Assembly (NCBI GenBank): GCA_009784305.1
Contig: WRBZ01000020.1
Span: 1-10,863 of the forward strand
Reading direction: 5' to 3'
DNA: 10,863 bases
DNA from: Synergistaceae bacterium
GTDB lineage: Bacteria > Synergistota > Synergistia > Synergistales > Aminobacteriaceae
The notes under the pieces are model-generated. The model ran no database searches, was not told the DNA's origin, and saw only the letters and a list, made by a program, of their open reading frames with translations. This document shows, piece by piece, positions 1 to 10,863 of this stretch. The number at the start of each line of letters is the position of its first letter. Position 1 is the stretch's first letter. A program made the translations under genes and the position numbers.

Positions 1-44
1 AATATAATCATAATATAAAGAGTACATGTAAGAATTCTTTTCAA
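1..44 (-). CDS. Partial gene start, probably type IV pilus secretin PilQ
   Basis: Only the first 14 codons lie in the window, reading MKRILTCTLYIMII from a TTG start at 44-42. A ribosome binding site, AAAGGAAG at 59-52, sits seven bases upstream. The peptide is a basic start (Lys-Arg) followed by a hydrophobic run, as in a Sec signal peptide. The gene follows pilM, pilN, pilO and a pilP-like gene on the same strand, after a gap of about 116 bases, and in many bacteria the next gene there is the outer-membrane secretin pilQ. The signal peptide and ribosome site are visible. The secretin identity is inferred from gene order alone, and no secretin domain can be seen. Confidence 0.5.
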   Translation of the reverse strand, partial: MKRILTCTLYIMII

Positions 45-131
45 AACAGCACTTCCTTTCTTATGCGCAAAGTAGTTTATTAATTACCAACCCTTGATTT
101 GACGCGGGTTCGGCCTTGGAAGCATCCGCCT

Positions 132-150
132 CCCTCCGCAGCGCGGAGGG
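132..150. repeat. GC-rich hairpin between the pilP-like gene and the next gene
   Basis: CCCTCCGC (132-139) and GCGGAGGG (143-150) form a perfect eight-base-pair stem around a three-base loop. The hairpin starts 11 bases after the pilP-like stop codon in the direction of transcription. No T-run follows on either strand, so it is not a typical intrinsic terminator. It may stabilise the 3' end of a processed message or lower expression of the gene downstream. Those roles are inferences. Confidence 0.5.
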
Positions 151-160
151 TCGGCATATA

Positions 161-742
161 CTACGGAGTATAAGTAAACTCTTTATTCTCAAAAACTATT
201 GTTATTTTATCCGCGTTTATGCGGGAAATTCGCCCCTTATTACCGGCAAACCTATCTCCCACCCTGTATATTTTTCCGCGGGTTTCTCCTTCTATATCAA
301 GCACTGCAACAGACCTTCCTTCAAGCTGCAACGTAGCCCTGACCTGCACGCCGGGAGGAACTATAACAGTTTGAGTTCTTATGCTTTCTAAATCGATTTC
401 GTTCACCGCCGCAATTCTCTCAGGGGTAAACGGACAACGCGCCATCAATTCAGCGGCTTCCGCTACCTCCTTACTGCGCGTTCTTGCGGAATTAGCCGCG
501 TTAAGGTCTTGTATCATCGTGTTAAGCCTGTTTATATCTGCTGTAGGAGGTCGGTTTACCGGCTCCACTATTTGCGGCGGGATATAGTTTCTTTCCTCGT
601 AAATCGCATAAACTGAAATACAAATACCGGCAAGCAGAACAAGAAACAATATTTTTCTGAATGTCGCGCCGTCAGACGGGTTCTCCACAGTGCCCATCAT
701 CAGGCTCCATGCTCTTCTCCCTGCGGTAGTCTCTTCAGCCAA
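161..742 (-). CDS. PilP/GspC-like type IV pilus alignment protein
   Basis: This is a 193-residue protein with a cytoplasmic N-terminus of about 30 residues, one membrane segment at about 31-48, a linker rich in Pro and Ala, and a small C-terminal domain at about 143-193. The C-terminal domain has the pattern G-x-x-Y-R-V-G-D-x-x-x-G followed by short beta strands. This resembles the homology-region domain of GspC and PilP, which binds the N-domains of the secretin. Classical PilP is a lipoprotein; this protein instead has a membrane anchor, as GspC has. The start is TTG at 742-740, chosen because a strong AAGGAGG at 757-751 lies eight bases upstream. It begins 18 bases after pilO and is surely in the same operon. 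The fold is inferred from the motif pattern, and its job in the pilus comes from context. Confidence 0.7.
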   Translation of the reverse strand: MAEETTAGRRAWSLMMGTVENPSDGATFRKILFLVLLAGICISVYAIYEERNYIPPQIVEPVNRPPTADINRLNTMIQDLNAANSARTRSKEVAEAAELMARCPFTPERIAAVNEIDLESIRTQTVIVPPGVQVRATLQLEGRSVAVLDIEGETRGKIYRVGDRFAGNKGRISRINADKITIVFENKEFTYTP

Positions 743-760
743 AATATATTCCTCCTTATA

Positions 761-1261
761 TTAGTTAGCCAAAGCTTCAAGAACAACTTCAGCTTTGATT
801 TCGCTGTTTACATCTTTAGGATCAATTGAAGCCAAGTTCAAAGAAACCACCCTGACGACATTCGGAAGCCCTCGAATTTCAGCAAGCGCTTTCATTATTG
901 CATAGTAATCACCGGTAAAGGTCATGCTCATTGATCTCCTTCCACCCTTGAGCGGATTTGGAGAATTTGCCAATACTCTTGCCCCTCCCCTGCTGATTGC
1001 CTTCTGAGCTTCGGAGTAAAAATCAACGTTCCCGCCTACTCCTACTTTCAATATATCAAGTTGTGTGAAAGCTTTTTCAAATTCCTGTTTTCTCCGTTCC
1101 ATCGTAGTGGTATCCTGAGCCAGGTCATTATATTCATTTGTAAGTGTTTGTAATTGTTGTCTAAGATCATTTATATAAGCATAGCCATAATAAGTTGTGC
1201 CGCTAAATGCCGCACACAGAATAAGAACTATTATACATATAAGCTTCTCATTGCTCTTCAT
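761..1261 (-). CDS. pilO: PilO-like type IV pilus inner-membrane protein
   Basis: This 166-residue bitopic membrane protein has one membrane segment at about 7-25, a heptad-like coiled coil at about 30-65 and a C-terminal alpha/beta domain. The stretch MSMTFTGDYYAIMKALAEI followed by a strand-forming EIKAEVVLEAL fits the ferredoxin-like core of PilO. In characterised systems PilO pairs with PilN in the periplasm and links PilM and PilC to PilP and the secretin. Its ATG overlaps the pilN stop as ATGA, which implies translational coupling. The family is so divergent that the call relies on architecture and position after pilN as much as on residue identity. Confidence 0.8.
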   Translation of the reverse strand: MKSNEKLICIIVLILCAAFSGTTYYGYAYINDLRQQLQTLTNEYNDLAQDTTTMERRKQEFEKAFTQLDILKVGVGGNVDFYSEAQKAISRGGARVLANSPNPLKGGRRSMSMTFTGDYYAIMKALAEIRGLPNVVRVVSLNLASIDPKDVNSEIKAEVVLEALAN

Positions 1262-1821
1262 TTCCTGTTGACCCTCCCAATTTCCAAGGGCGCCAGTGAT
1301 AACGTAAATCTAAGCCCCTCAGGCCCCATATCAGTCCTATTTACAACAGGAACTTGAGCGGTGCTGAAAGTCCCGCTGTCAAGCAAGCTGCGGGTAGTTG
1401 TAACGATGTTATCTTCGGTATTTGCGACCCCATTGAGTTTTAACTCCGGCTGAGAGAGTGTCATGGAGACCAAAGTCACTCCCCTGGCGAGAGATCTGTC
1501 AATTGAATCAAAAACTTCTATAGTAGGAAGATCCTGATGCATTATGCTCAAGCTTGAAACGTAAACCGCCTCCTGCTGGGCAAGCCTTCTCAGCTCAGCC
1601 TCCAATTTAACCTTTATCGTACGGTATTCATCATTTCTCTCATTTAATGAGCTGATATTAGTGTTTAGGGACATTATATCCACTACCATGCTGAACCACA
1701 CAAAACAAACTACACCCGTAAAAATCAGGAGCATACAAAACATAAGCAGTCCAATTTTTCTTGTTTTTGGAGGTCTTACGTTTTTTTCGCTCTCGGGTCT
1801 CAGGTCAAGCTTTACTATCAA
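1258..1821 (-). CDS. pilN: PilN-like type IV pilus inner-membrane protein
   Basis: This 187-residue protein has the PilN layout. A short cytoplasmic tail begins IVKLDLRPESEK, in the position of the conserved PilN tail that docks into PilM. A membrane segment follows at about 24-48, then a coiled coil at about 52-85 and a periplasmic alpha/beta domain. The start is TTG at 1821-1819. A weak GGTGAT lies a few bases upstream, and a nearer ATG at about 1826 is out of frame and soon stops. The gene lies about 57 bases after pilM and overlaps pilO by four bases. The tail motif is looser than the usual INLLP-type sequence, matching the equally divergent PilM beside it. Confidence 0.8.
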   Translation of the reverse strand: MIVKLDLRPESEKNVRPPKTRKIGLLMFCMLLIFTGVVCFVWFSMVVDIMSLNTNISSLNERNDEYRTIKVKLEAELRRLAQQEAVYVSSLSIMHQDLPTIEVFDSIDRSLARGVTLVSMTLSQPELKLNGVANTEDNIVTTTRSLLDSGTFSTAQVPVVNRTDMGPEGLRFTLSLAPLEIGRVNRK

Positions 1822-1878
1822 GGCTCATCACCGCTTTCTCGGGTAAAAACATGTTGTTCATTAAAACATAGCAATAAA

Positions 1879-2784
1879 TCAGTGCATGCACAGACCCAGC
1901 GCAGGTTCAAAGCCGGTCCCGATGCCACCGCCGGCATCGGGGTCAATACCGCATTGTTCATAAACGTTGACGGTCTCAACTTCCAAATCTATTGAACCAC
2001 TTATTGTCCCAACGATATTGGGATTATTGGCGATTGCCCCGCATAAAACCAACGTTCGCGCCGTCACGTTTTTAAATTGGTTAGTGACATAGGAAATCGT
2101 ACGTTGAATCTCCGATATGACCCTTTGAACATCATCCTCATTATTCGCGTCGATGATCCCGCTCATTCCCGCAGGGCTTGAACGGTAGAGCAAACCGTTA
2201 TCCTTAGCGACAAATGCAAAATGCAGCCCGTCAATATCCGAGTACATCGAATGCCACGCCTCTTTCCGGTCCGGCTTATTCCCGATTATCGCGCGCAATA
2301 CCGCCACGTTCATAGGTTCAATGGCTTTCAGTTTCATCCCGGCCCTATCCGCAATCTGCATCACTTTGGTAATATGCTCGTTGCGGCAAGCCGCAACGAG
2401 CAAAGACATCTTGTCTTTCGATGTAAGCGGAGATTCAACTTCGCATGCATCAACCGAACACTCAGAATAAGACCACGTAAAATGCCTGTCAAATTCCCAC
2501 TGCAACGCCTGTTTCGCTTCCTCCACAGGCATACGGGGAAATTCAATGACGCGGACCATGGATTCGCGCATCGGCAGGCCAAAAACGACAGGTACGCTGA
2601 AACTGCCCAATTCGCTCATCAAATGGGTAGCCACTGTATCGGCGTTTCCGCTGCGAATTTCTGAAATGACCGCCTGCCTCACCACTTTGTAAGCGTCAGG
2701 GCGGCCGCTCAGCTCAAGGTATCTCAGCCCTGTCGAATGTTGCGTTATAGCAGCAAAGGCGTTGCCTTGACTTTTTTTAGCCAT
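1879..2784 (-). CDS. pilM: PilM-like actin-fold protein with degenerate nucleotide site
   Basis: This 301-residue soluble protein is recognised as PilM by the helix VEEAKQALQWEFDRHF (about 87-102), by overall length slightly under the usual 350, by the C-terminal GIGTGFEPALGL (about 287-298) that matches the family's closing glycine-rich stretch, and by pilN lying immediately downstream. PilM is a cytoplasmic ring-forming member of the actin/FtsA superfamily that binds the PilN tail. The usual ATP-site motifs are poor. The N-terminal DIG-type loop is replaced by AAITQHSTG, the second phosphate loop reads SDIDGLHFAF (about 182-191), and the adenosine motif reads LVLCGAIANNPN. The ATG at 2784 has only a weak ribosome site (TGGA). 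The pilin gene ends 39 bases upstream, so the two probably share a transcript. Confidence 0.8.
   Translation of the reverse strand: MAKKSQGNAFAAITQHSTGLRYLELSGRPDAYKVVRQAVISEIRSGNADTVATHLMSELGSFSVPVVFGLPMRESMVRVIEFPRMPVEEAKQALQWEFDRHFTWSYSECSVDACEVESPLTSKDKMSLLVAACRNEHITKVMQIADRAGMKLKAIEPMNVAVLRAIIGNKPDRKEAWHSMYSDIDGLHFAFVAKDNGLLYRSSPAGMSGIIDANNEDDVQRVISEIQRTISYVTNQFKNVTARTLVLCGAIANNPNIVGTISGSIDLEVETVNVYEQCGIDPDAGGGIGTGFEPALGLCMH
2376..2401. repeat. 26-base near-complete palindrome inside pilM
   Basis: GCTCGTTGCGGC (2376-2387) is followed by AA and then its exact reverse complement (2390-2401), a 12-base-pair perfect inverted repeat with a two-base centre. It lies inside pilM and encodes the residues around LLVAACRNEHI, which fit the reading frame well. 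In the message it would be a very stable hairpin. Confidence 0.85.
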
Positions 2785-2823
2785 TTTAACTATCCAGTCT
2801 GTTCTGAATTGAACAAATATCCC

Positions 2824-3273
2824 TTATTTCACGCGCATGTAGATTGGATTGGTGCCAGCAACAGCAGGAGCACCGGCTGCATCGAATACTGTTCCTGCAG
2901 CCAACGATACAACTTTCGCGCCGACTCTCGCGTCAGCATTTGCTTTTCCCACGAAATAGCATTGTACCCCGCTGACAGTTGGTGCCAAAAACACCAGTTG
3001 CTTAGCCTTTTCCACATTGTCCATGTAGGTTTCGAAATCAGTTGCTGTAGCAGGAGCAATCCATGCAGCTGAAAGAGCCGATTCTTCTATATTGAGATTA
3101 TCGGCAAACCACACAACTCCGGCCGCCTTCGCGTTGCGAAGGTCGGAAACCAGCGTCGCAGCTCTCGCAGAATCCGTCGCGCTGGCGGAAGCCAACATCA
3201 TTCCTCCTGCAAGAATTCCAATAACTATAATAACAATCAGCAGCTCAACCAGTGTAAATCCTTTACGTTTCAT
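2824..3273 (-). CDS. Type IV pilin (PilA-like prepilin)
   Basis: This is a 149-residue class III prepilin. The leader MKRKG is followed by FTLVELLIVIIVIGILAG, giving peptidase cleavage after Gly5, a mature N-terminal Phe that would be methylated by PilD, and the assembly-critical Glu at mature position 5. The hydrophobic helix continues into a conserved alpha spine and then a small globular domain. Only one cysteine is present, so there is no disulfide-bounded D-loop as in Neisseria and Pseudomonas pilins. The start is ATG at 3273-3271, with AAGGAG at 3287-3282 eight bases upstream. A GTG three codons earlier overlaps that ribosome site and is unlikely. The strong ribosome site and the separate position after a 400-bp gap suggest an abundant, independently expressed subunit. 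It could be a minor pilin, but no other pilin gene is in view. Confidence 0.92.
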   Translation of the reverse strand: MKRKGFTLVELLIVIIVIGILAGGMMLASASATDSARAATLVSDLRNAKAAGVVWFADNLNIEESALSAAWIAPATATDFETYMDNVEKAKQLVFLAPTVSGVQCYFVGKANADARVGAKVVSLAAGTVFDAAGAPAVAGTNPIYMRVK

Positions 3274-3681
3274 ATTAAACACTCCTTTTTTATATTTTGC
3301 GGCTTATGCCGCTCTACAATACGCATTTTGCGTAGTGCATACACATGTAACTATTTCATCCTAACGCGCACAATCTTTCCGCCGTGGCAGTAAGAAGCGC
3401 GCCATACCCATCCAGAAAGGCGCGCCTGACGTTTATCCAAGCGCTTGTCAACTACCCCGCAAAACACACTATCCGCTTAAAAATTAACAATAATGACAAC
3501 TGTCAACAACTCAATCACAGTGCAACCTCTTTTTTCACCCCTACATAATCAACCCCTTTCCTTTCACAAAACGCGGCTTAAAAATAAACCAAGGCAAAAG
3601 CCGCTATATATTATGGAGCATAATCTGAAAAAAACATAGTACTTTTTTGTCTTGTTTTTTTCTAATCCTACCCCCTAATCC
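3274..3681. other. Intergenic region between pilC and the pilin, rich in inverted repeats
   Basis: I find no convincing gene in these 400 bases. On the transcribed (minus) strand there are several inverted repeats. GCGGC/GCCGC (3299-3303 with 3308-3312) lies about nine bases upstream of the pilin ribosome site. GCGCGCC/GGCGCGC spans 3397-3425. A seven-base stem GCGGCTT/AAGCCGC (3573-3579 with 3598-3604) lies about 78 bases past the pilC stop, and an A7/T7 repeat spans 3627-3662. The 3573-3604 stem could be a weak terminator for pilC. The pilin promoter should lie here. Two TTGACA boxes occur on the minus strand (3506-3501 and 3451-3446), but neither has a well-spaced -10, so I do not call a promoter. 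Confidence 0.5.
3299..3312 (-). promoter_or_regulatory. Stem-loop in the pilin 5' leader next to the ribosome site
   Basis: GCGGC, a four-base loop and GCCGC form a short perfect GC stem about 12 bases before the AAGGAG of the pilin gene. A 5' stem at this place could protect an abundant pilin message from decay or modulate ribosome access. The stem is visible; the role is a guess. Confidence 0.35.
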
Positions 3682-3688
3682 CTACCCC
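3662..3688. repeat. Short tandem G-rich repeat across the pilC stop codon
   Basis: CTAATCCTACCCC and CTAATCCCTACCCC stand head to tail on the plus strand. On the coding (minus) strand this reads as G-runs of four, three, five and two separated by TA or ATTA, with the TAG stop of pilC between the first two runs. The spacing suits a two-layer G-quadruplex in RNA or on the non-template strand. Confidence 0.6.
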
Positions 3689-4917
3689 GTCAACTGCTCC
3701 ATCGCCCCAATCATCGGGCCATATACGGACATCGCTATTATAGCAACTAAAACTCCCACAACAATTATCATCAGAGGCTCCATCATTGAAGTGAGGGCTT
3801 TCACCTGCTGTTCAAGTTCATCGTCATACCAATCGGACACCTTTGCCAAAGTATCATCAAGCGAGCCGGATTCCTCGCCAATACGGATCATCTGTATTAT
3901 CATCGGGGGAAAAACTTTCGCGTCAAAAGCCGAAATCGCAAGCGTACGCCCGCGTTTAGCCCCTTCGATCAGAACGTCAAATGCTCTTTTAATAACAAAA
4001 TTATCCGCAACCCTGCCCGCCATTTCCAGCCCATTCAATATGGGCACGCCGGAAGAGACCAACACCGAAAGCGTACGCATAGCGCGCGTCATTACAGAAC
4101 GAAACGCTACCCCTTTTATTATCGGCATTTTTAGCCACATCTTGTCAAATAATTCCCGCCCGATTCTGGTTCTGCCAAAAGAAATAAGCCCAATGACAGT
4201 TCCAATGAATCCTCCAATGACCAACCACCAGTAATCTTTCATAAATTCAGACAGATCAATCATAGCGACGGTCAATGCGGGCAATTTTATCCCCATCTGT
4301 TTGAATACCTCCTGGAACATCGGCAGGACAAATGTAAGGAACACCCACATAACTCCTACCGCAATGAGCATAATTACTACGGGGTAAGTCATAGCGCCCT
4401 TTACTTTGCGCTTAATGGCTTCAGTTTTTTCCAAAATTGAAGCCGCGCGGTCAAGCGAAGAATCGAGAACCCCGCCTTCCTCTCCAGCCTGCGCAAGCGC
4501 CACAACCAATTGTGAAAAATGCTTGTTCATGCTCATCGCTTTGCTGAATGAAAGCCCCGAATCTATTTTCTTTCTGACGTCAATAAGAGCGTCCTTAAAT
4601 ATCAAATTCGTTTCCTGTTTCTCTATTATATCAAGAGCGATTACTAAAGATAGCCCCGCCTGAAGCATCGTTGCCAATTGGCGGAAGAACAGCATCTTAA
4701 CCTTGTTGGGAACCGTTCCGATACGCTGCATAGTTGCTAATAAACCACGGGAGGATTCACTGCGTCCCATGGAAGAAGCGCCTGTAACAATTTCAACAGT
4801 AATTGGGATAAGCCCTTGCGAGCGCATAGCTCTGACAGCTTCATCCCTATTGCTTGCAGAAATAGTATTCTTTACAACCTTACCATCTGAGTCCCTTGCC
4901 TGATACTTAAAGTCCAT
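3682..4917 (-). CDS. pilC: Type IV pilus inner-membrane platform protein PilC (GspF family)
   Basis: This is a 411-residue protein of normal length for PilC/GspF, with the N-terminal FKYQARDSDGKVV start typical of the family and two copies of the T2SF domain (about 70-195 and 275-398). The repeated signature is visible twice: AGEEGGVLDSSL at 144-155 and IGEESGSLDDTL at 346-357. Membrane helices lie at about 178-200, 230-248 and 380-400. PilC sits in the inner membrane, binds the assembly and retraction ATPases and feeds pilin into the growing fibre. The ATG at 4917 has AAAGGAA about eight bases upstream. The neighbouring pilB and pilT ATPase genes often found beside pilC are absent. The stop codon lies in a G-rich tandem repeat. 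Confidence 0.95.
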   Translation of the reverse strand: MDFKYQARDSDGKVVKNTISASNRDEAVRAMRSQGLIPITVEIVTGASSMGRSESSRGLLATMQRIGTVPNKVKMLFFRQLATMLQAGLSLVIALDIIEKQETNLIFKDALIDVRKKIDSGLSFSKAMSMNKHFSQLVVALAQAGEEGGVLDSSLDRAASILEKTEAIKRKVKGAMTYPVVIMLIAVGVMWVFLTFVLPMFQEVFKQMGIKLPALTVAMIDLSEFMKDYWWLVIGGFIGTVIGLISFGRTRIGRELFDKMWLKMPIIKGVAFRSVMTRAMRTLSVLVSSGVPILNGLEMAGRVADNFVIKRAFDVLIEGAKRGRTLAISAFDAKVFPPMIIQMIRIGEESGSLDDTLAKVSDWYDDELEQQVKALTSMMEPLMIIVVGVLVAIIAMSVYGPMIGAMEQLTG

Positions 4918-5119
4918 TCTTCAAGTTCCTTTCTTCAACGACAGCTTAGTCAAATTGAAAGCCGCCTTAATAAAGGATACAAAACAAAACACAATTCTCG
5001 TTATATATAACTGAAGTATCGTTATTTATTATAATGATTGAATAACTGCATATATCAAGATCAAATTCACCTATTTGACTTTACACAATAACATAATAAT
5101 TTGAAAAATACAAGGTAGT
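4918..5119 (-). promoter_or_regulatory. AT-rich gap with candidate pilC promoter and palindrome
   Basis: These 200 bases separate the flippase gene from pilC and contain no gene. On the minus strand a consensus -10 TATAAT lies at 5033-5028, with TTGATA at 5058-5053 as a possible -35 at a long 19-base spacing. Downstream of it is a perfect 12-base palindrome, GTTATATATAAC (5000-5011), which could be an operator or just AT-rich chance. I see no GC hairpin with a T-run after the flippase stop at 5120, so read-through into pilC is possible. Confidence 0.4.
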
Positions 5120-6670
5120 TTATAGTTTTTTCATTATAAAAACCCTATATACCATACCAAGCAGGGCACGCGGCCTCCACAATTCCGGTACAGGCCCGAG
5201 CCATCCGAAATATTCGCAAACGGACAAATGAAAAAACACTGCCGCCACACCCGAAATAATTGATGCAAACGTATGATCGGAAATGTAAAACAACGCTGAA
5301 GCCCACACGGAAGAAAAAATCACCTGTTTCATTGCCGAAGGAGCCTGCCTCTTGAAAGTCCCACCCGGAGCCATTCGATAAACGTAATAGATTCCAAGGG
5401 CCACCTGAATCAGGCTTGTTGCCGCGCAAATCCCCGCCGCTCCCCAAATCGGAGCAAAGAGCCAATCAAGAAAAACATTGAGGCAAATACTGACGCAGCT
5501 TACCGTAAATAATAATTTAAGCCTTGAAGTGGCAACCCCCCAATTGTTCATAATTATTATCCACGCCAAAAATGGCGTGCCCACAGCCAGAATTGCAAAA
5601 CATGGAGCAGTAAGGGAAATAGCCCGATAATCGAAAGCCCCGTATCCCAAAATTACTTTTATTATCGGGAACGACAACGCGGCGGAAGCGCATGCTATCG
5701 GCAGCATATAAGCCCATCCTATGGCAAGGGACTTATTCAGCGATTCACTTAACAACGCCTCATCCTCAAATATTCTGCTCAAATGCGTCAGGTGTATCTG
5801 TGAAGCTAATATGGCAATTATCATTATCTGCGTTATTATCTGTGAAGCGTAGCTTATAGCGGATACATTCCCCTCTTCAAGCCCCGCAGCAAACCAGCAG
5901 TCAATAACAGTATAAAATATTCCCGCGCCAAGTACCCAAATACACATGAAAGCATCTTTTGCGGTCTTTTTTAAAATATTTTCCGGAATTGAAGTACTCG
6001 GAACAATTGGGATATCGCGCAGCAGGTACAACGAAATCAGGGTAAAAACAACGGCAACAATTAAAAGCGACAGAGCGACCGCATATACCTCCATAAATGG
6101 AAACAATATCAATAGAATCAATAATCCGGCGGGAGTAGCCAACGCGTTTATGATATTTATTAAGGAATATATCTTTTTATAATTAGCCCAAACATTTAAA
6201 AGCGCGGATAAAAGCTGAGTATATCCCATTGGCAGAAGCAGTAATAGCATGTTCTTAGCTATTTCCGCGCGTTCGCTGTCCAGAGCGGAGGCAAACAGCC
6301 ATACGCATCCTGCAGGGAAAAGCACTATAACGAAAACCGCAATAACTCCCCAAACAAGAACGTAACGAATGACAACGGCAAAATACGAACGTGCCGCAGC
6401 TTCGTCTTTTGCAGAAAGCCTCATAAGGTTAGGCATAACAGACGTGTGGATTACAGATGCAGCAATCCCCATAATGAGGGAAACCGCGCCGCTCGCTATA
6501 TAATAAGCGTCAATTCCCGCGGATGCTCCAAAAAGATAAGCTATCAAAAGCAGCCTTAAATATCCTACAGGCTTTATGATCATATATGCCGCAGCCGAAG
6601 CAATAAGGCTTGCGCGCGGGGATAAAACTTTTATTTTTCTGATTAAGTCACGCAGTTTATACAAACTCAA
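5120..6670 (-). CDS. MurJ/MviN-family (MOP superfamily) lipid flippase, divergent
   Basis: This polytopic protein of about 516 residues has the length and roughly 14-helix pattern of MurJ. The first helices carry KPVGYLRLLLIAYLFGASAG and then IDAYY (Gly36 to Tyr57), aligning with the MurJ stretch holding GFARD and FGAG..TDAFF. MurJ moves lipid II across the inner membrane. Here the Arg of GYLR and the Asp after FGA are kept, but the region matching the MurJ NLLRRxFAEGAF motif reads AVSLIMGIAASVIH, without its Arg and Glu. The later helix-8 Arg (ADR in E. coli) is replaced by ASQ. It may therefore carry a different lipid-linked substrate. The start is taken as TTG at 6670-6668 because GAGGTGG (6682-6676) lies five bases upstream; an in-frame GTG at 6679 overlaps that ribosome site. 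It could still be the cell's only MurJ. Confidence 0.8.
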   Translation of the reverse strand: MSLYKLRDLIRKIKVLSPRASLIASAAAYMIIKPVGYLRLLLIAYLFGASAGIDAYYIASGAVSLIMGIAASVIHTSVMPNLMRLSAKDEAAARSYFAVVIRYVLVWGVIAVFVIVLFPAGCVWLFASALDSERAEIAKNMLLLLLPMGYTQLLSALLNVWANYKKIYSLINIINALATPAGLLILLILFPFMEVYAVALSLLIVAVVFTLISLYLLRDIPIVPSTSIPENILKKTAKDAFMCIWVLGAGIFYTVIDCWFAAGLEEGNVSAISYASQIITQIMIIAILASQIHLTHLSRIFEDEALLSESLNKSLAIGWAYMLPIACASAALSFPIIKVILGYGAFDYRAISLTAPCFAILAVGTPFLAWIIIMNNWGVATSRLKLLFTVSCVSICLNVFLDWLFAPIWGAAGICAATSLIQVALGIYYVYRMAPGGTFKRQAPSAMKQVIFSSVWASALFYISDHTFASIISGVAAVFFHLSVCEYFGWLGPVPELWRPRALLGMVYRVFIMKKL

Positions 6671-6699
6671 ATAAACCACCTCGCGCGTATATTAGCATA

Positions 6700-6708
6700 T
6701 GATATAAT
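6700..6708 (+). promoter_or_regulatory. Extended -10 promoter for the tup riboswitch operon
   Basis: TGATATAAT combines a perfect TATAAT (6703-6708) with the TGn extension, which can replace a good -35; no clear -35 is seen. Transcription would start at about 6714-6716, just before the first stem of the leader RNA at 6722, so the promoter and the RNA structure agree in position. The divergent flippase gene begins only about 30 bases to the left. Confidence 0.65.
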
Positions 6709-6720
6709 AAATATGTAATA

Positions 6721-6830
6721 ACCTCCGAGCTTGCTTATCCTAAAAGTTACCCCCAGAGTATCCATGGATTGCAAGCCGATAGGGCCAGTAAGGAAACTAA
6801 TTGGCCTCCCGTATTTGGCAAGGAGGAACG
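6721..6830 (+). ncRNA. Candidate Moco/Tuco (molybdenum or tungsten cofactor) riboswitch
   Basis: The leader of the tungstate operon folds into a compact aptamer. The closing stem is CCTCC (6722-6726) with GGAGG (6822-6826). The second stem is GCTTGC (6729-6734) with GCAAGC (6771-6776) and continues inward as ATCC/GGAT (6737-6740 with 6766-6769). A long hairpin of GGCCAGT against AATTGGCC type (6783-6806) is capped by AGGAAACT, a GAAA tetraloop. Next to the inner stem CCTAA faces CATGG, close to the 11-base GAAA-tetraloop receptor. From memory, a GNRA loop and receptor are part of the Moco RNA motif, and forms lacking the P3 stem were proposed to sense the tungsten cofactor. Location before tupABC and a terminator that competes with the closing stem support the call. 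The class is assigned by eye; a covariance-model search would settle it. Confidence 0.72.
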
Positions 6831-6896
6831 AATACAGGCGCAAATTTAAAGTTCTAATTAATCTGACTTTTTACTTTGACGTTTGAAATGTTCAAT

Positions 6897-6939
6897 CCTC
6901 CTTGCTCATTTTATGAGTTCAAGGAGGGTTTTTATTTTT
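6897..6939 (+). terminator. Riboswitch-controlled intrinsic terminator before tupA
   Basis: CCTCCTTG (6897-6904) pairs with CAAGGAGG (6920-6927), extended by CTCAT/ATGAG inside. The hairpin is followed by GTTTTTATTTTT, a clear U-run at 6929-6939. It ends 31 bases before the tupA start. Its 5' arm is also perfectly complementary to GCAAGGAGG (6818-6826) at the 3' end of the aptamer. When the aptamer's closing stem is open that pairing would form an antiterminator. Ligand binding would therefore favour the terminator and switch the operon off. Confidence 0.88.
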
Positions 6940-6970
6940 GGAAGCAAGAAAAATTTTGGAGGTGTTTTAT

Positions 6971-7813
6971 TTGAAAAGGAAAGTACTTTTGATGGTGGCA
7001 ATAACAGCAATTTTAGTTTTTTTTACAGCAGGAATGGTTTTGTCGATTCCGCTTCCTGTCTTGCGGATGGCTACAACAACAAGCACCGATAATACCGGGC
7101 TTCTCGATTATCTGGCGCCATTTGTGACAGAGCAGCTTGGAATTGACCTGCAATGGGTGTCCGTTGGCTCTGGGGCGGCAATCAAGCATGGCGAAAATGG
7201 GGACGTCGATATTATTTTAACCCATGACCCCGCGGCAGAGGATAAATTTGAAGCAAGCGGAGCCGGAGTCTATCGCAAGTATGTCATGTATAACGATTAT
7301 ATTGTAATAGGACCGAAAAATGACCCTGCGGGGATAAAAGGGCTTTCAACAGCGGAAGCTTTCAATAAAATAGCAAATTCCGGGTCGGTATTCGCAAGCC
7401 GCGCGGACAAATCCGGGACACACAGTGCCGAGCTCGCGCAATGGGGACACGCCGGCATACAGGTTCCTGACAAAGAGCAATGGTACCTTGCTACCGGACA
7501 GGGAATGCTTCAGACAATAATTATAGCGGCTGAAAGAGAAGGATATACCCTTACAGACAGAGGCACATACATAACCTATGAGTCAAAAGGCAGCCCGGAG
7601 CTTGTGATACTCGTTGAAGGGGACGAGTCGCTATATAATCAATACAGCATAATGACGGTAAACCCTGAAAAACATCCTAAGACTAATCATGAACTTGCCA
7701 AAAAATTTACGGATTGGTTAATATCACCGGTGACTCAAACTCTAATAGCAGACTTTAAGGTTCAGGATAAGCAACTCTTCTTCCCCAACGCGGAAGATAA
7801 AAACAAGGAGTAG
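6971..7813 (+). CDS. tupA: Tungstate ABC transporter substrate-binding protein TupA
   Basis: This 280-residue periplasmic protein has a Sec signal peptide (KRK, then a hydrophobic run to about residue 26) and the TupA-type binding domain. Visible signatures are ATTTSTDNTGLLDYL (about 34-48, the TTTS oxyanion loop), GDVDIILTH (about 77-85), MYNDYIVIGPKNDPAGI (about 106-122) and SRADKSGTH (about 143-151). The TTTS and SR-D-SGTH motifs distinguish TupA from ModA. The start is TTG at 6971 because GGAGGTG (6958-6964) lies six bases upstream. An earlier in-frame TTG at 6938 falls in the terminator's U-run, lacks a ribosome site and would put extra residues before the signal peptide. It is followed by tupB after a 91-base gap holding a long hairpin. 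Selectivity for tungstate over molybdate follows from family membership and cannot be read from the sequence alone. Confidence 0.93.
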   Translation: MKRKVLLMVAITAILVFFTAGMVLSIPLPVLRMATTTSTDNTGLLDYLAPFVTEQLGIDLQWVSVGSGAAIKHGENGDVDIILTHDPAAEDKFEASGAGVYRKYVMYNDYIVIGPKNDPAGIKGLSTAEAFNKIANSGSVFASRADKSGTHSAELAQWGHAGIQVPDKEQWYLATGQGMLQTIIIAAEREGYTLTDRGTYITYESKGSPELVILVEGDESLYNQYSIMTVNPEKHPKTNHELAKKFTDWLISPVTQTLIADFKVQDKQLFFPNAEDKNKE

Positions 7814-7824
7814 GAAAAGAACTT

Positions 7825-7880
7825 CCCCCTTTTGAAAGTGGGCATATTATGACCTCCAGCCACACCCTTTCAAAAGGGGG
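7825..7880 (+). repeat. Long hairpin between tupA and tupB
   Basis: CCCCCTTTTGAAAG (7825-7838) and CTTTCAAAAGGGGG (7867-7880) form a perfect 14-base-pair stem around a 28-base loop. The right arm continues in a run of seven Gs, followed only by CTTT, so it is a poor terminator. Hairpins between a binding-protein gene and its permease gene often shield the upstream message from 3' decay and so raise binding protein over permease. That role is inferred. The element could also be a copy of a small dispersed repeat. Confidence 0.7.
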
Positions 7881-7904
7881 GGCTTTAGTTAGGAGAATAT
7901 ATAA

Positions 7905-8597
7905 TTGGATTTTATCTACAACGGTTTATTGCAGGGTATAAATTTAATATTTTCCGGAGATGAAGCTGTATGGAGCGCTGTAAAACTTACGCTTGAGCTT
8001 ACTGCGTTATCAATGTGCGCTTCGCTCCTTATCGGCCTTCCTTTAGGATTCATTCTCGGCTATTTTAATTTTCCAACGAAAAGTATATTGCGAACTATAG
8101 TAGATACCTGCCTTTCGCTTCCAACGGTTGTAGTGGGGCTTCTGGTTTACGCTTTCATATCAAACGCAGGGCCATTAGGACAATACAAACTACTTTTCAC
8201 TATTCCAGGAATAGCTATTGGTCAAACGATTCTTGCTCTTCCCATAGTTATAGCTCTCACAGCAAATGCTATCGAATCGCTCGATAATAGGCTGCGCCTC
8301 ACTTTATTAACCCTTGGTGCAGGAGCCTTTTCAGCCGCTGTGACAACGCTGTGGGAAGCGAGGTATCAAGTCATAGCGGCGGCAGTAACCGCATGCGGAA
8401 GGATAACCGCCGAAGTCGGAGTGTCAATGATGCTTGGCGGAAATATAAAATGGCGGACCCGTACAATAACAACGGCAATAACCCTCGAAACCAATAAGGG
8501 CGAATTTGCGGCAGGAATAGCGCTCGGAGTTATTCTTCTTTCACTTGCGCTCATCCTGAATACTTTTCTGGCTTTTGCGAAGAGGCGTGACAAATGA
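7905..8597 (+). CDS. tupB: Tungstate ABC transporter permease TupB
   Basis: This 230-residue integral membrane protein has about five to six helices and the binding-protein-dependent permease fold. The cytoplasmic EAA-type loop lies at about 123-155 (ESLDNRLRLTLLTLGAGAF...). The stretch ACGRITAEVGVSMMLGGNI (about 163-181) is a strongly conserved TupB sequence. It forms the membrane channel for tungstate with TupC as motor. The start is TTG at 7905, with AGGAG (7891-7895) nine bases upstream. It overlaps tupC by four bases (ATGA), which implies coupled translation of the two inner subunits. Confidence 0.92.
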   Translation: MDFIYNGLLQGINLIFSGDEAVWSAVKLTLELTALSMCASLLIGLPLGFILGYFNFPTKSILRTIVDTCLSLPTVVVGLLVYAFISNAGPLGQYKLLFTIPGIAIGQTILALPIVIALTANAIESLDNRLRLTLLTLGAGAFSAAVTTLWEARYQVIAAAVTACGRITAEVGVSMMLGGNIKWRTRTITTAITLETNKGEFAAGIALGVILLSLALILNTFLAFAKRRDK

Positions 8598-9238
8598 TAT
8601 ACGAACTTGAGAATTTGCGATGCTCATATAAGGACAGATTAGCTCTCGATATACCATACCTCGCCATAGAGAGGGGATCCACGGTTGGGTTCGTTGGCCG
8701 CAACGGAAGCGGCAAAAGCACGCTGCTCAAGGCTCTTGGGTTTTTGCAACCTTACGAGGGAACTTTGAAATTTTTCGGTAATATAAATCCAAGCAGGAAT
8801 GAAAAACGTAAAGTAACATTGCTTTTACAGGAACATTTCCTGTTACGCAGAAGCGTTTTTGAAAACGTCGCTTACGGGCTTCGCCTGAGGCATATTCCGA
8901 ACGGTGAGATTAAATCAAGAGTGGAAGAAGCCCTGACAAGCGTAGGGCTTGAACCTGAGCTTTTTGCCCGTCGCCAATGGTATGCGCTGTCGGGGGGAGA
9001 ATCCCAGAGGGTTGCCCTGGCTGCAAGGCTTGCCCTCAAACCTGAAGTGCTGCTGCTCGACGAGCCAACCGCAAACATTGACGAAGATAGTTCCATACTT
9101 GTGAACAATGTCTTGACAAAAATCAAAGAAAAAGGGACAACTATTATAATTGCCTCTCACGATATCACATGGCTTAATGAACTGATCAATTCGGAAAAAG
9201 ACAAAATATTGACCCTGCGCGGAGGAGTAATTTCGTAA
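8594..9238 (+). CDS. tupC: Tungstate ABC transporter ATP-binding protein TupC
   Basis: This 214-residue cytoplasmic ATPase has all the nucleotide-binding motifs in order: Walker A GRNGSGKST (35-43), Q-loop Gln79, signature LSGGESQR (132-139), Walker B VLLLDEP (152-158) and switch His189 in IIASHD. It has no C-terminal molybdate-binding (MOP) domain of the kind found in ModC, matching the short TupC type. Regulation by ligand would therefore not act through this subunit. The ATG overlaps the tupB stop and has only a weak AGAGG upstream, so translation probably depends on tupB. No terminator is visible after its stop, and some transcription may continue into the MFS gene. Confidence 0.92.
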   Translation: MIYELENLRCSYKDRLALDIPYLAIERGSTVGFVGRNGSGKSTLLKALGFLQPYEGTLKFFGNINPSRNEKRKVTLLLQEHFLLRRSVFENVAYGLRLRHIPNGEIKSRVEEALTSVGLEPELFARRQWYALSGGESQRVALAARLALKPEVLLLDEPTANIDEDSSILVNNVLTKIKEKGTTIIIASHDITWLNELINSEKDKILTLRGGVIS

Positions 9239-9257
9239 AGAATTAGAGTTCCGGATT

Positions 9258-9266
9258 TGCTATAAT
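9258..9266 (+). promoter_or_regulatory. Extended -10 promoter for the MFS-ankyrin pair
   Basis: TGCTATAAT holds a perfect TATAAT (9261-9266) with the TGn extension, in the 61-base gap between tupC and the MFS gene. No good -35 is seen at 16-18 bases. A start at about 9273 would give a 27-base leader. This would let the MFS and ankyrin genes be expressed outside riboswitch control. Confidence 0.55.
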
Positions 9267-9299
9267 TGCTGTAAAGAAAGTGAAATGGGGAATTATTGA

Positions 9300-10451
9300 A
9301 TGCGGCTTATAGCTTATCTCATAGCGATTACATGGGCAATTTATTGTTATTCGAACGCGTATTTTTTCATGCCCGTATACCTTGATTTGAACGGATTCCC
9401 CAAGGAGCTTACCGGTATCCTCGTTGGAGCTTTTTATGTGGCAACGACTCTTGTGCGGCCTATTGGCGGATTTATAACTGAACGTGCCGGCATAAAAATA
9501 ACCCTCATTACCTCGGCCTCAATCTGCATTTTCGCGGCGGCGTTAAAATTTTTTACACTATCGTTCACGCCGCTCTTGTTGATTCGCATCCTCATGGGCT
9601 GTTCTTTCGGAACGTTCATAGTGGCGCTCACCACATATCAGTCGTTGACCGTTCCGGAGGAGTCCCGCGGCGTCACTTTCGCGTATATATCCATAGGCTC
9701 GCTCGCGTGTTTGGTGACTGTGGTACCCTTGGCCGACCTGTTTTTGTCATTATCTTTCGAAAAGCTTTTCCTGTCCCTGTCAATGATGACGGCAGTTCTC
9801 TGTCTGATTCTCTCAATAAAACTTCCTCCATTGCCTGATAAAGTAAAAAGCGCCACTGAGAATAAGAAGTGGGGAACGTGGAGAGAGCTTTACGAGAATA
9901 CTCCTTTTTGGAGAATAGTCGCTTCAAACGCGCTGTTTAACATTTGCGATGCGGCAAACATTTATCTGCCTGCATTTGCCATAGCATTGGGGCTTGTGCC
10001 TTCATCGTTCGCCGTATCCATAGCAATAGCAGCCTTTACGGCAAGGACTTTAGGGAAGAATGTTTTCACTATTTTCCCTCGCTACGCCCTTGCCGGCCCG
10101 TCGCTTTTCATCATGGCACTATCGCTTTTTCTCAGCACATACGCGACAAGCAATGCTTTATTCTCCATATGCGGGATGATTTTCGGTGTGGGAATGGGTT
10201 ACGGATACCCCGCGCATCTTTCACTTATAGGAGATCTTGCTCCTGAAAAATTACGCGCCAAACTATCGTCCTTAGTCCATTTCTGTATTGATACAGGCTG
10301 GTTTATTATTCCTCTGTACATGGGGTTCGCAATCCCGCGTATCGGAGAAGTCGGAGCGTTTAAGGCGCTCTCAATAGTCTGTATGATTTCAGGAGTTTTG
10401 GTTACCGTCATGTGGACCCGGTACGGGAAAGTAAAACAGGCGGCTAAATAA
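9300..10451 (+). CDS. Major facilitator superfamily transporter, substrate unknown
   Basis: This 383-residue protein has about 12 hydrophobic helices in two halves split by a charged loop at about residue 185-205 (PDKVKSATENKKWGTWREL). Between helices 2 and 3, GGFITERAGIK (about 57-67) is a form of the MFS motif A (G-x-x-x-D-R-x-G-R-R) in which Glu replaces Asp. RILMGCSFGTF matches the helix-4 pattern with a membrane Arg. The length and lack of a long central loop suit small drug, sugar or organic-anion carriers. The substrate cannot be told. The ATG at 9300 has a GGGG-type ribosome site nine bases upstream. The gene ends in a one-base TAATG overlap with the ankyrin gene, so the two are co-translated. 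Nothing ties it to tungstate beyond position. Confidence 0.85.
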   Translation: MRLIAYLIAITWAIYCYSNAYFFMPVYLDLNGFPKELTGILVGAFYVATTLVRPIGGFITERAGIKITLITSASICIFAAALKFFTLSFTPLLLIRILMGCSFGTFIVALTTYQSLTVPEESRGVTFAYISIGSLACLVTVVPLADLFLSLSFEKLFLSLSMMTAVLCLILSIKLPPLPDKVKSATENKKWGTWRELYENTPFWRIVASNALFNICDAANIYLPAFAIALGLVPSSFAVSIAIAAFTARTLGKNVFTIFPRYALAGPSLFIMALSLFLSTYATSNALFSICGMIFGVGMGYGYPAHLSLIGDLAPEKLRAKLSSLVHFCIDTGWFIIPLYMGFAIPRIGEVGAFKALSIVCMISGVLVTVMWTRYGKVKQAAK

Positions 10452-10863
10452 TGCTTGCCCTTGCGATAATTTTTTCACTCTCATTTTTTGAAATTTGCGC
10501 CACGGGCACCCCTGAGCTGGTAAAAAGCTATATTCACGCAGGCGTTTCGATTGAGGCGCGCGATGAAGAAGGGCGCACCGCGTTGATGCACGCGGCGCAA
10601 TATAATAAGAATCCGGAGGTAATAAAACTCCTTGTAAGGGAAGGCGCGGCTCTTGAAGCAAGAGGGAGACGCGGCTCATACAGAGGGCAAACCGCTCTGA
10701 TGATAGCTGCAGCGTATAACCGGAATCCGGACGTGACAAAAGCGCTGCTTCAATGCGGGGCGGTAATCGACGCAAGGGACCGCGACGGATTCACTGCGCT
10801 GCTGCTGGCAGAACTATACAATCCAAACCCTGAGGTCGCGGAATTGCTCAAGAGAGCCGGCGC
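10451..10863 (+). CDS. Ankyrin-repeat protein, 3' end outside the window
   Basis: The frame is open from ATG at 10451 to the last base (137 codons visible). It begins MLALAIIFSLSFFEICATG, then a partial repeat TPELVKSYIHAGVSIEARD, followed by full ankyrin repeats with the G-x-TALM-x-AA pattern at about 41-49, 79-87 and 113-119. The inner helices carry NPEV/NPDV motifs at about 54, 92 and 126. The second junction has a four-residue insert (RGRRGSY region). The hydrophobic start might be a signal peptide, but FFEICATGTPELV also reads as the first ankyrin helix, so the location is unsettled. Start and coupling to the MFS gene rest on the TAATG overlap. Ankyrin repeats bind other proteins; no partner or enzymatic domain is visible in this part. 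Confidence 0.88.
   Translation, partial: MLALAIIFSLSFFEICATGTPELVKSYIHAGVSIEARDEEGRTALMHAAQYNKNPEVIKLLVREGAALEARGRRGSYRGQTALMIAAAYNRNPDVTKALLQCGAVIDARDRDGFTALLLAELYNPNPEVAELLKRAG

Follow-up and report, generated by a model that had tools for sequence, protein, structure and literature searches.

A P3-less member of the Moco RNA family with mutually exclusive folds precedes a tupABC-like operon in a Synergistaceae bacterium

The leader RNA of a tupABC-like operon was analyzed in a Synergistaceae bacterium (assembly GCA_009784305.1). The window, that is, the whole stretch of DNA studied, comprises positions 1 to 10,863 of the forward strand of contig WRBZ01000020.1, and the features described below lie on its plus strand unless stated otherwise. 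The leader is a member of a known family of cofactor-sensing RNAs (Rfam RF01055, Moco RNA; Moco, molybdenum cofactor). Computation establishes its family membership, a set of mutually exclusive pairings, a stable terminator, and conservation across the phylum; termination in vivo, direct ligand binding, and the identity of the ligand are what we infer from these. It is highly probable that the leader is a terminating OFF switch of the class responding to Moco or to the tungsten cofactor (Tuco). We are nearly as confident in the fuller reading, a P3-less Moco-family riboswitch exerting OFF control of the tupABC-like operon by transcription termination. That Tuco rather than Moco is the main ligand is favored with less assurance. 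The leader adds another member to a published riboswitch family, in the form for which the tungsten cofactor is the predicted ligand.

An earlier note on this DNA had named a Moco/Tuco riboswitch from fold features and the tupABC context, and had proposed a search with the RF01055 covariance model. The model matches positions 6711-6841 over its full length (model positions 1-135) with 70.3 bits, well above the gathering cut-off of 36. No match beyond 6711-6841 was found in the window or in its own genome, which is 78% complete. The Rfam alignment contains P1, with its 5′ arm CCTCC at 6722-6726; P2 (6729-6734 with 6771-6776), with extra nucleotides inserted in its loop compared with the model (whole region 6729-6776); P4, a hairpin at 6782-6807 with a GAAA tetraloop at 6793-6796; and P5 (6809-6810 with 6817-6818; region 6809-6818). 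The P3 positions of the model are deleted, which makes this RNA a P3-less form and a predicted tungsten-cofactor aptamer. The site where P3 would sit is the P2-P4 linker at 6777-6781 (a 3-nt spacer in the MAFFT alignment). Pair counts in tupA leaders agree with the aptamer, and with P2 and P4 within it. The missing P3 is the most informative feature of the RNA and had been overlooked in the earlier note.

The Moco RNA family was defined by Regulski et al. (2008; PMC2408646) and split by P3; 58 of 176 members were without this helix, and Tuco was proposed as the ligand of the P3-less form. The window RNA resembles the family in the whole-model match, in P1, P2, P4, and P5, in the tetraloop, and in the metal-oxyanion transport genes downstream; closure of P1 is expected to switch the gene off, and intrinsic terminators follow some members (PMC2408646). 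Its lack of P3 and its association with tungsten-type genes place it beside the subgroup called "Tuco" or "WCo." OFF control has been demonstrated for the Escherichia coli moaA member (PMC2408646), which has P3, whereas the window RNA has none and carries an enlarged P2 loop. The E. coli ribosome binding site lies inside P1, unlike that of the window member. An RNA-seq method published in 2025 describes modulation of transcription termination by the E. coli Moco riboswitch (PMC12121620). No publication on the present leader was found in the open-access literature, and the accessible text of PMC3766115, PMC2996986, and PMC7266159 adds nothing on it.

The P1 3′ arm (6822-6826) belongs to a strand with two partners. 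The sequences GCAAGGAGG (6818-6826), CCTCC (6722-6726), and CCTCCTTGC (6897-6905) stand where the earlier note had put them and are perfect complements as claimed. The nine-base competing pairing described there is present but was understated: strand 6817-6827 pairs with 6896-6906 through ten Watson-Crick pairs and one G-U pair. When 6833-6945 was shuffled with dinucleotide composition preserved, a ten-pair Watson-Crick helix with 6811-6832 was reached in only 2 of 2000 shuffles, and against mononucleotide shuffles the terminator 5′ arm scored z = -5.1 with the switch strand. The 6896-6906 strand overlaps the 5′ arm (6897-6904) of an intrinsic terminator hairpin at 6894-6930, with the 3′ arm CAAGGAGG at 6920-6927 and the U-rich tract TTTATTTTT following the stem at 6931-6939. 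Its folding energy is -19.1 kcal/mol (z = -6.1; 0 of 200 shuffles equally stable). A simple terminator scan of the window did not list this hairpin, probably because loops in the scan are limited to 8 nt; the scan gave 12 terminator-like hits, compared with 12.4 in shuffles.

The complete leader was folded by equilibrium secondary-structure calculation, which includes neither ligand nor tertiary contacts. The fold with the antiterminator (ON) reaches -71.2 kcal/mol and that with P1 plus terminator -66.3 kcal/mol, so the calculation favors ON when no ligand is bound. In the ON fold the spacer at 6830-6893 forms a long hairpin that joins both antiterminator strands. The P1 5′ arm (6722-6726) is also paired, in this case with the terminator 3′ arm at 6923-6927, a contact missed in the earlier note; four strands, two CCUCC and two GGAGG, therefore swap partners. 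When transcript prefixes were folded, P1 had a probability of 0.95-0.98 at ends 6885-6895 and the antiterminator one of 0.90-0.95 at ends 6905-6920.

These folds suggest the following mechanism. P1 would form during transcription before the terminator 5′ arm emerges. With cofactor bound, most likely Tuco, P1 and P5 would stay closed and keep strand 6817-6827 occupied, including the 3′ strand of P5 that is shared with the antiterminator; the terminator at 6894-6930 would then form and tupABC would remain untranscribed. With no ligand, strand 6817-6827 would invade the emerging terminator 5′ arm through its eleven pairs, the freed P1 5′ arm could additionally capture the terminator 3′ arm, and transcription would proceed. 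The earlier note made terminator formation conditional on a closed aptamer. This goes too far, because it is the antiterminator that excludes the terminator; an open aptamer lacking the antiterminator would permit it as well.

Conservation of the arrangement was assessed in a sample of 185 genomes of the phylum. RF01055 matches occur in 92 of them, and 73 have a TupA match with an E-value no higher than 1e-40; TupA matches above 240 bits number 73, in 70 genomes. In the first listing, a same-strand Moco RNA lay fewer than 1200 nt upstream of 55 of these 73 main TupA matches. The two listings combined raise this to 62 of 73, and the scan of one locus (L060) adds another (G022), for 63 of 73. 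Scans of eight tupA loci with no listed RNA revealed a Moco RNA in four (L048, L060, L061, L062) and none in the other four (L044, L050, L052, L056). One scan of genome contigs yielded two loci. By the criteria of this analysis, a terminator candidate follows in 52 of the 55 leaders, starting at most 60 nt from the aptamer end in 48; three leaders have none. In most relatives the terminator begins a few nucleotides after the aptamer, and the long spacer hairpin of the window leader is unlike these.

The aptamer itself was aligned for 40 of the 55 tupA leaders (39 distinct). Standard pairs fill 92.5% of the cells at paired positions, compared with 38.7-57.0% in slid versions, and the covariation score of the distinct leaders is 0.46 against 0.18 in shuffles. 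Double changes fall mostly in P2 and P4, with one pair in P1. Since covariation at a single position could not serve for the switch strand, duplex energies of cognate and permuted pairs of switch strand and terminator arm were compared instead (52 of 59 leaders usable). Cognate duplexes average -13.6 kcal/mol and permuted ones -12.0 kcal/mol, and none of 5000 permutations was as low. When each of the 24 genera was represented by a single leader (20 random draws, each with 500 permutations), a median of 0.6% of permutations, and never more than 2.2%, were as low. Competition between P1 and the terminator 5′ arm is thus conserved as a property while the sequence changes, as judged from these predicted duplexes. 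Of the covariation among competing arms that the earlier note had proposed to look for in tupA leaders, one P1 pair and the conserved competition were recovered.

Several results weigh against a terminating switch of this design. The aptamer folded alone has a minimum-energy structure without P1 (the centroid has it) and a z of only -1.6, and P1 is not dominant early in the prefix foldings (0.12-0.44 at ends 6840-6880). In the aptamer alignment twelve pairs change on both sides, a count that 101 of 500 shuffles also reached; none of these pairs lies in P5. For the one position that varies within the switch strand (GGxAAGG), an ungapped register search found mixed partners and no clear covariation. 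Taken singly, 21 of 52 leaders pass p < 0.05 against mononucleotide shuffles, with a median z of -1.67. The 31 leaders that are not significant would suit a different explanation, a terminator that attenuates constitutively, with the eleven-pair alternative arising by chance. The aptamer itself dictates most of CCUCC and GGAGG, and some complementarity to terminator arms rich in pyrimidines is then readily obtained. We regard this explanation as very improbable given the shuffles of the window leader described above, in z as well as in the rarity of ten pairs, and the advantage of cognate over permuted pairing across genera.

If the leader is indeed a terminating Moco-family switch, the choice between Moco and Tuco is a prediction drawn from the missing P3 and from comparative data on downstream genes. 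P3 state and downstream gene were assigned for 187 of 230 listed RNAs, with tandem copies counted separately; the phylum listing alone contains 244 RF01055 matches, with stricter filters by which weak matches are lost. Neither a regular expression nor the spacer length gave a reliable automatic test for P3, and 23 P3+ assignments were made by eye from hairpins and Rfam alignments. Judged by the MAFFT spacer, 3 of 144 RNAs were P3+; a further member of that set (G152_C50_34429) was later recognized as P3+ from its hairpin. Gene labels are best BLASTP matches to a reference set built for this analysis. One reference, TupA2_L067, was rejected as an out-of-frame open frame over a tupA start with no family match. 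This fault, together with TupA matches that were distant or absent within 1200 nt of some RNAs labelled TupA, led to a recount of TupA cases by position, requiring a TupA profile match less than 1200 nt downstream and excluding six RNAs labelled TupB or TupC.

By this count none of the 69 RNAs before TupA (57 genomes, 29 genera) is P3+. Before canonical ModA all five are P3+, and all five belong to genus g11; the four RNAs before MoeA are P3+ as well. Elsewhere, the P3-less and P3+ forms number 20 and 0 before DcuR-type response regulators, and 8 and 0 where a ModB-type permease comes first, with a WtpA-like gene third in six. Among 112 ModA matches, the loci of 70 were scanned and held a Moco RNA in three, all P3+; outside these lie two more P3+ cases (G067, G070) and four weak ModA cases. 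In eight genomes a P3-less RNA at tupA coexists with a P3+ RNA elsewhere. tupA and canonical modA are thus cleanly separated by P3, as PMC2408646 would predict, in which tupA and tupB homologues served to assign tungsten use; at xanthine-oxidase-family genes, P3 state does not track the type of enzyme.

These genes speak against a simple rule. Before the xanthine-oxidase-family aldehyde oxidoreductase (NF045668), 25 RNAs are P3-less and 12 are P3+. The four RNAs before weak ModA-family genes (above cut-off) are all P3-less, none being P3+. An aldehyde ferredoxin oxidoreductase (AFOR)-family gene stands next after moeA in three of the four P3+ moeA loci; a P3+ RNA beside this family, typically of tungsten enzymes, is an exception to the P3 rule. 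The genome of the window also has a xanthine-oxidase-family gene. An AFOR-family gene and moaA- and moeA-type genes in that genome count for tungsten, as does the lack of any ModA match there, an absence weakened by its 78% completeness. In E. coli, deletion of P3 abolished control and did not change specificity (PMC2408646). A strong ModA is encoded in the genome for 11 of the 12 P3+ and 1 of the 25 P3-less xanthine-oxidase-family cases (Fisher test, with a 140-bit threshold picked after seeing the data). A tree that includes 35 of the 37 proteins places the 12 P3+ ones in a single clade, with one change of P3 state. Shared ancestry explains the association as well, and with the post-hoc threshold it was not counted as independent evidence.

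The same terminating riboswitch might accordingly bind Moco, or either metal form, with the absence of P3 silent on the metal. P3-less RNAs before xanthine-oxidase-family and weak ModA-family genes fit this alternative, as do the single change on the tree, which lineage alone could explain, the confinement of modA/P3+ cases to one genus, and exceptions listed in PMC2408646. It has to accommodate a uniformly P3-less set of 69 RNAs at tupA across 29 genera, a uniformly P3+ set at canonical modA and moeA, and eight genomes in which both forms coexist and the RNA at tupA is P3-less; we consider it unlikely, at roughly one chance in four. Another possibility is that the balance depends on a CsrA-like protein bound to GGA motifs in the leader, in which case the RNA would not be the direct sensor. 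CsrA controls the E. coli moaA leader. A protein factor could not be excluded in the original description of the family (PMC2408646). The aptamer is large, with a conserved core and covariation, and it occurs in different forms at tupA and at modA, as a sensor would, so that we give the protein explanation very little weight.

We therefore return to a P3-less riboswitch with Tuco as its probable ligand. In the literature available to us, the metal specificity of P3-less RNAs is still deduced from gene neighborhoods. The idea of separating tungsten- from molybdenum-cofactor sensing, suggested in the earlier note, had been published in 2008 (PMC2408646). Because termination can be read without the ribosome, a tupA leader whose terminator is clear lends itself to transcription assays, and the eight genomes with both P3 forms provide matched pairs for asking whether RNA can distinguish the two metals when the cofactor is otherwise the same. 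The value of the leader lies in this clean construct and in its contribution to a natural comparison of both P3 states across the phylum, and not in a new mechanism. It is conceivable, though we hold it at somewhat less than even chances, that P3-less RNAs at tupA are true Tuco sensors, that in this phylum one cell reads two metals through two aptamer forms (P3+ at molybdenum-type genes, P3-less at tungstate uptake), and that a second, core-altered aptamer in the tandem leaders of one family may sense a third state, such as the other metal form or a precursor.

These tandem leaders occur before tupA in family f8 (G133:C1:2928972-2929089:- with 2928647-2928767:-; also L010, L070, L262); 193-268 nt separate the second copy from the first. 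In the second copy CCCUGAA-type letters (J1/2 UGAA) replace CCGAG in 10 of 10 aligned RNAs, and in none of the other 177. The motif is present in 12 of 13 tupA leaders with a gap above 400 nt, and in one of the 12 (G163) it is apparently degenerate. This aptamer may have a changed specificity. A P3-less triple array has been described whose operon also contains transport genes for molybdate or tungstate (PMC2408646), and tandem Moco and WCo arrangements are listed in a review of tandem riboswitches (PMC9481103).

Other observations concern the remaining Moco RNA loci. The P3+ RNAs before moeA (L091, L245, L250, L244) start P4 with GAG instead of GGG. At six loci (L129, L127, L086, L151, L252, L248) a P3-less RNA precedes a DcuR/DpiA-like response regulator gene, and a P3+ RNA before a xanthine-oxidase-family gene lies about 1-2.5 kb downstream of it. 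Most scanned ModA loci (L164-L233) are without a nearby Moco RNA, and some end at contig ends. A TwoAYGGAY RNA (RF01731) was matched at L232:470-614 on the minus strand with 46.9 bits (cut-off 43).

The operon downstream of the leader is tupABC-like and likely encodes a tungstate importer, in line with the genetic context claimed before. It comprises a tupA-like gene at 6971-7813 (the start is probably the TTG at 6971, judged by eye; the longest frame begins at 6938), a tupB-like permease gene at 7905-8597, and a tupC-like ATPase gene at 8594-9238. Gene order and best matches are those of tupABC tungstate ABC transporters. The proteins score below the curated NCBIfam equivalog cut-offs, which counts against this assignment, and tungstate selectivity is predicted: NF041772 TupA, 293 of 400 bits; NF041773 TupB, 274 of 320; and NF041774 TupC, the best NCBIfam match, 165 of 400. 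The TupA cut-off is exceeded in only 1 of the 185 genomes and is therefore severe for this lineage. A Shine-Dalgarno-like GGAGG of tupA at 6958-6962 lies outside the switch. Upstream of the aptamer, an extended -10 promoter-like element, TGATATAAT, was noted by eye at 6700-6708 with no recognizable -35; the promoter scan, which needs a -35, did not contain it. A terminator-like hairpin at 7865-7882, between tupA and tupB, may lower tupBC expression or may be due to chance.

A MurJ-family gene lies upstream of the leader in the opposite orientation. Further away on the minus strand, the genes of region 161-4917 include one for a GspF/PilC-like protein of type II secretion or type IV pili and another whose product bears a prepilin methylation motif. 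On the plus strand, tupC is followed by an MFS transporter gene (9300-10451) and an ankyrin-repeat frame (10451-10861) that runs off the contig end. Elsewhere in the genome an AFOR-family gene, moaA- and moeA-type genes, and partial molybdopterin-oxidoreductase matches were identified. One of the partial matches (G000:C92:4442-4882, L235) has a single TGA in frame and is perhaps, as a guess, a selenocysteine formate dehydrogenase.
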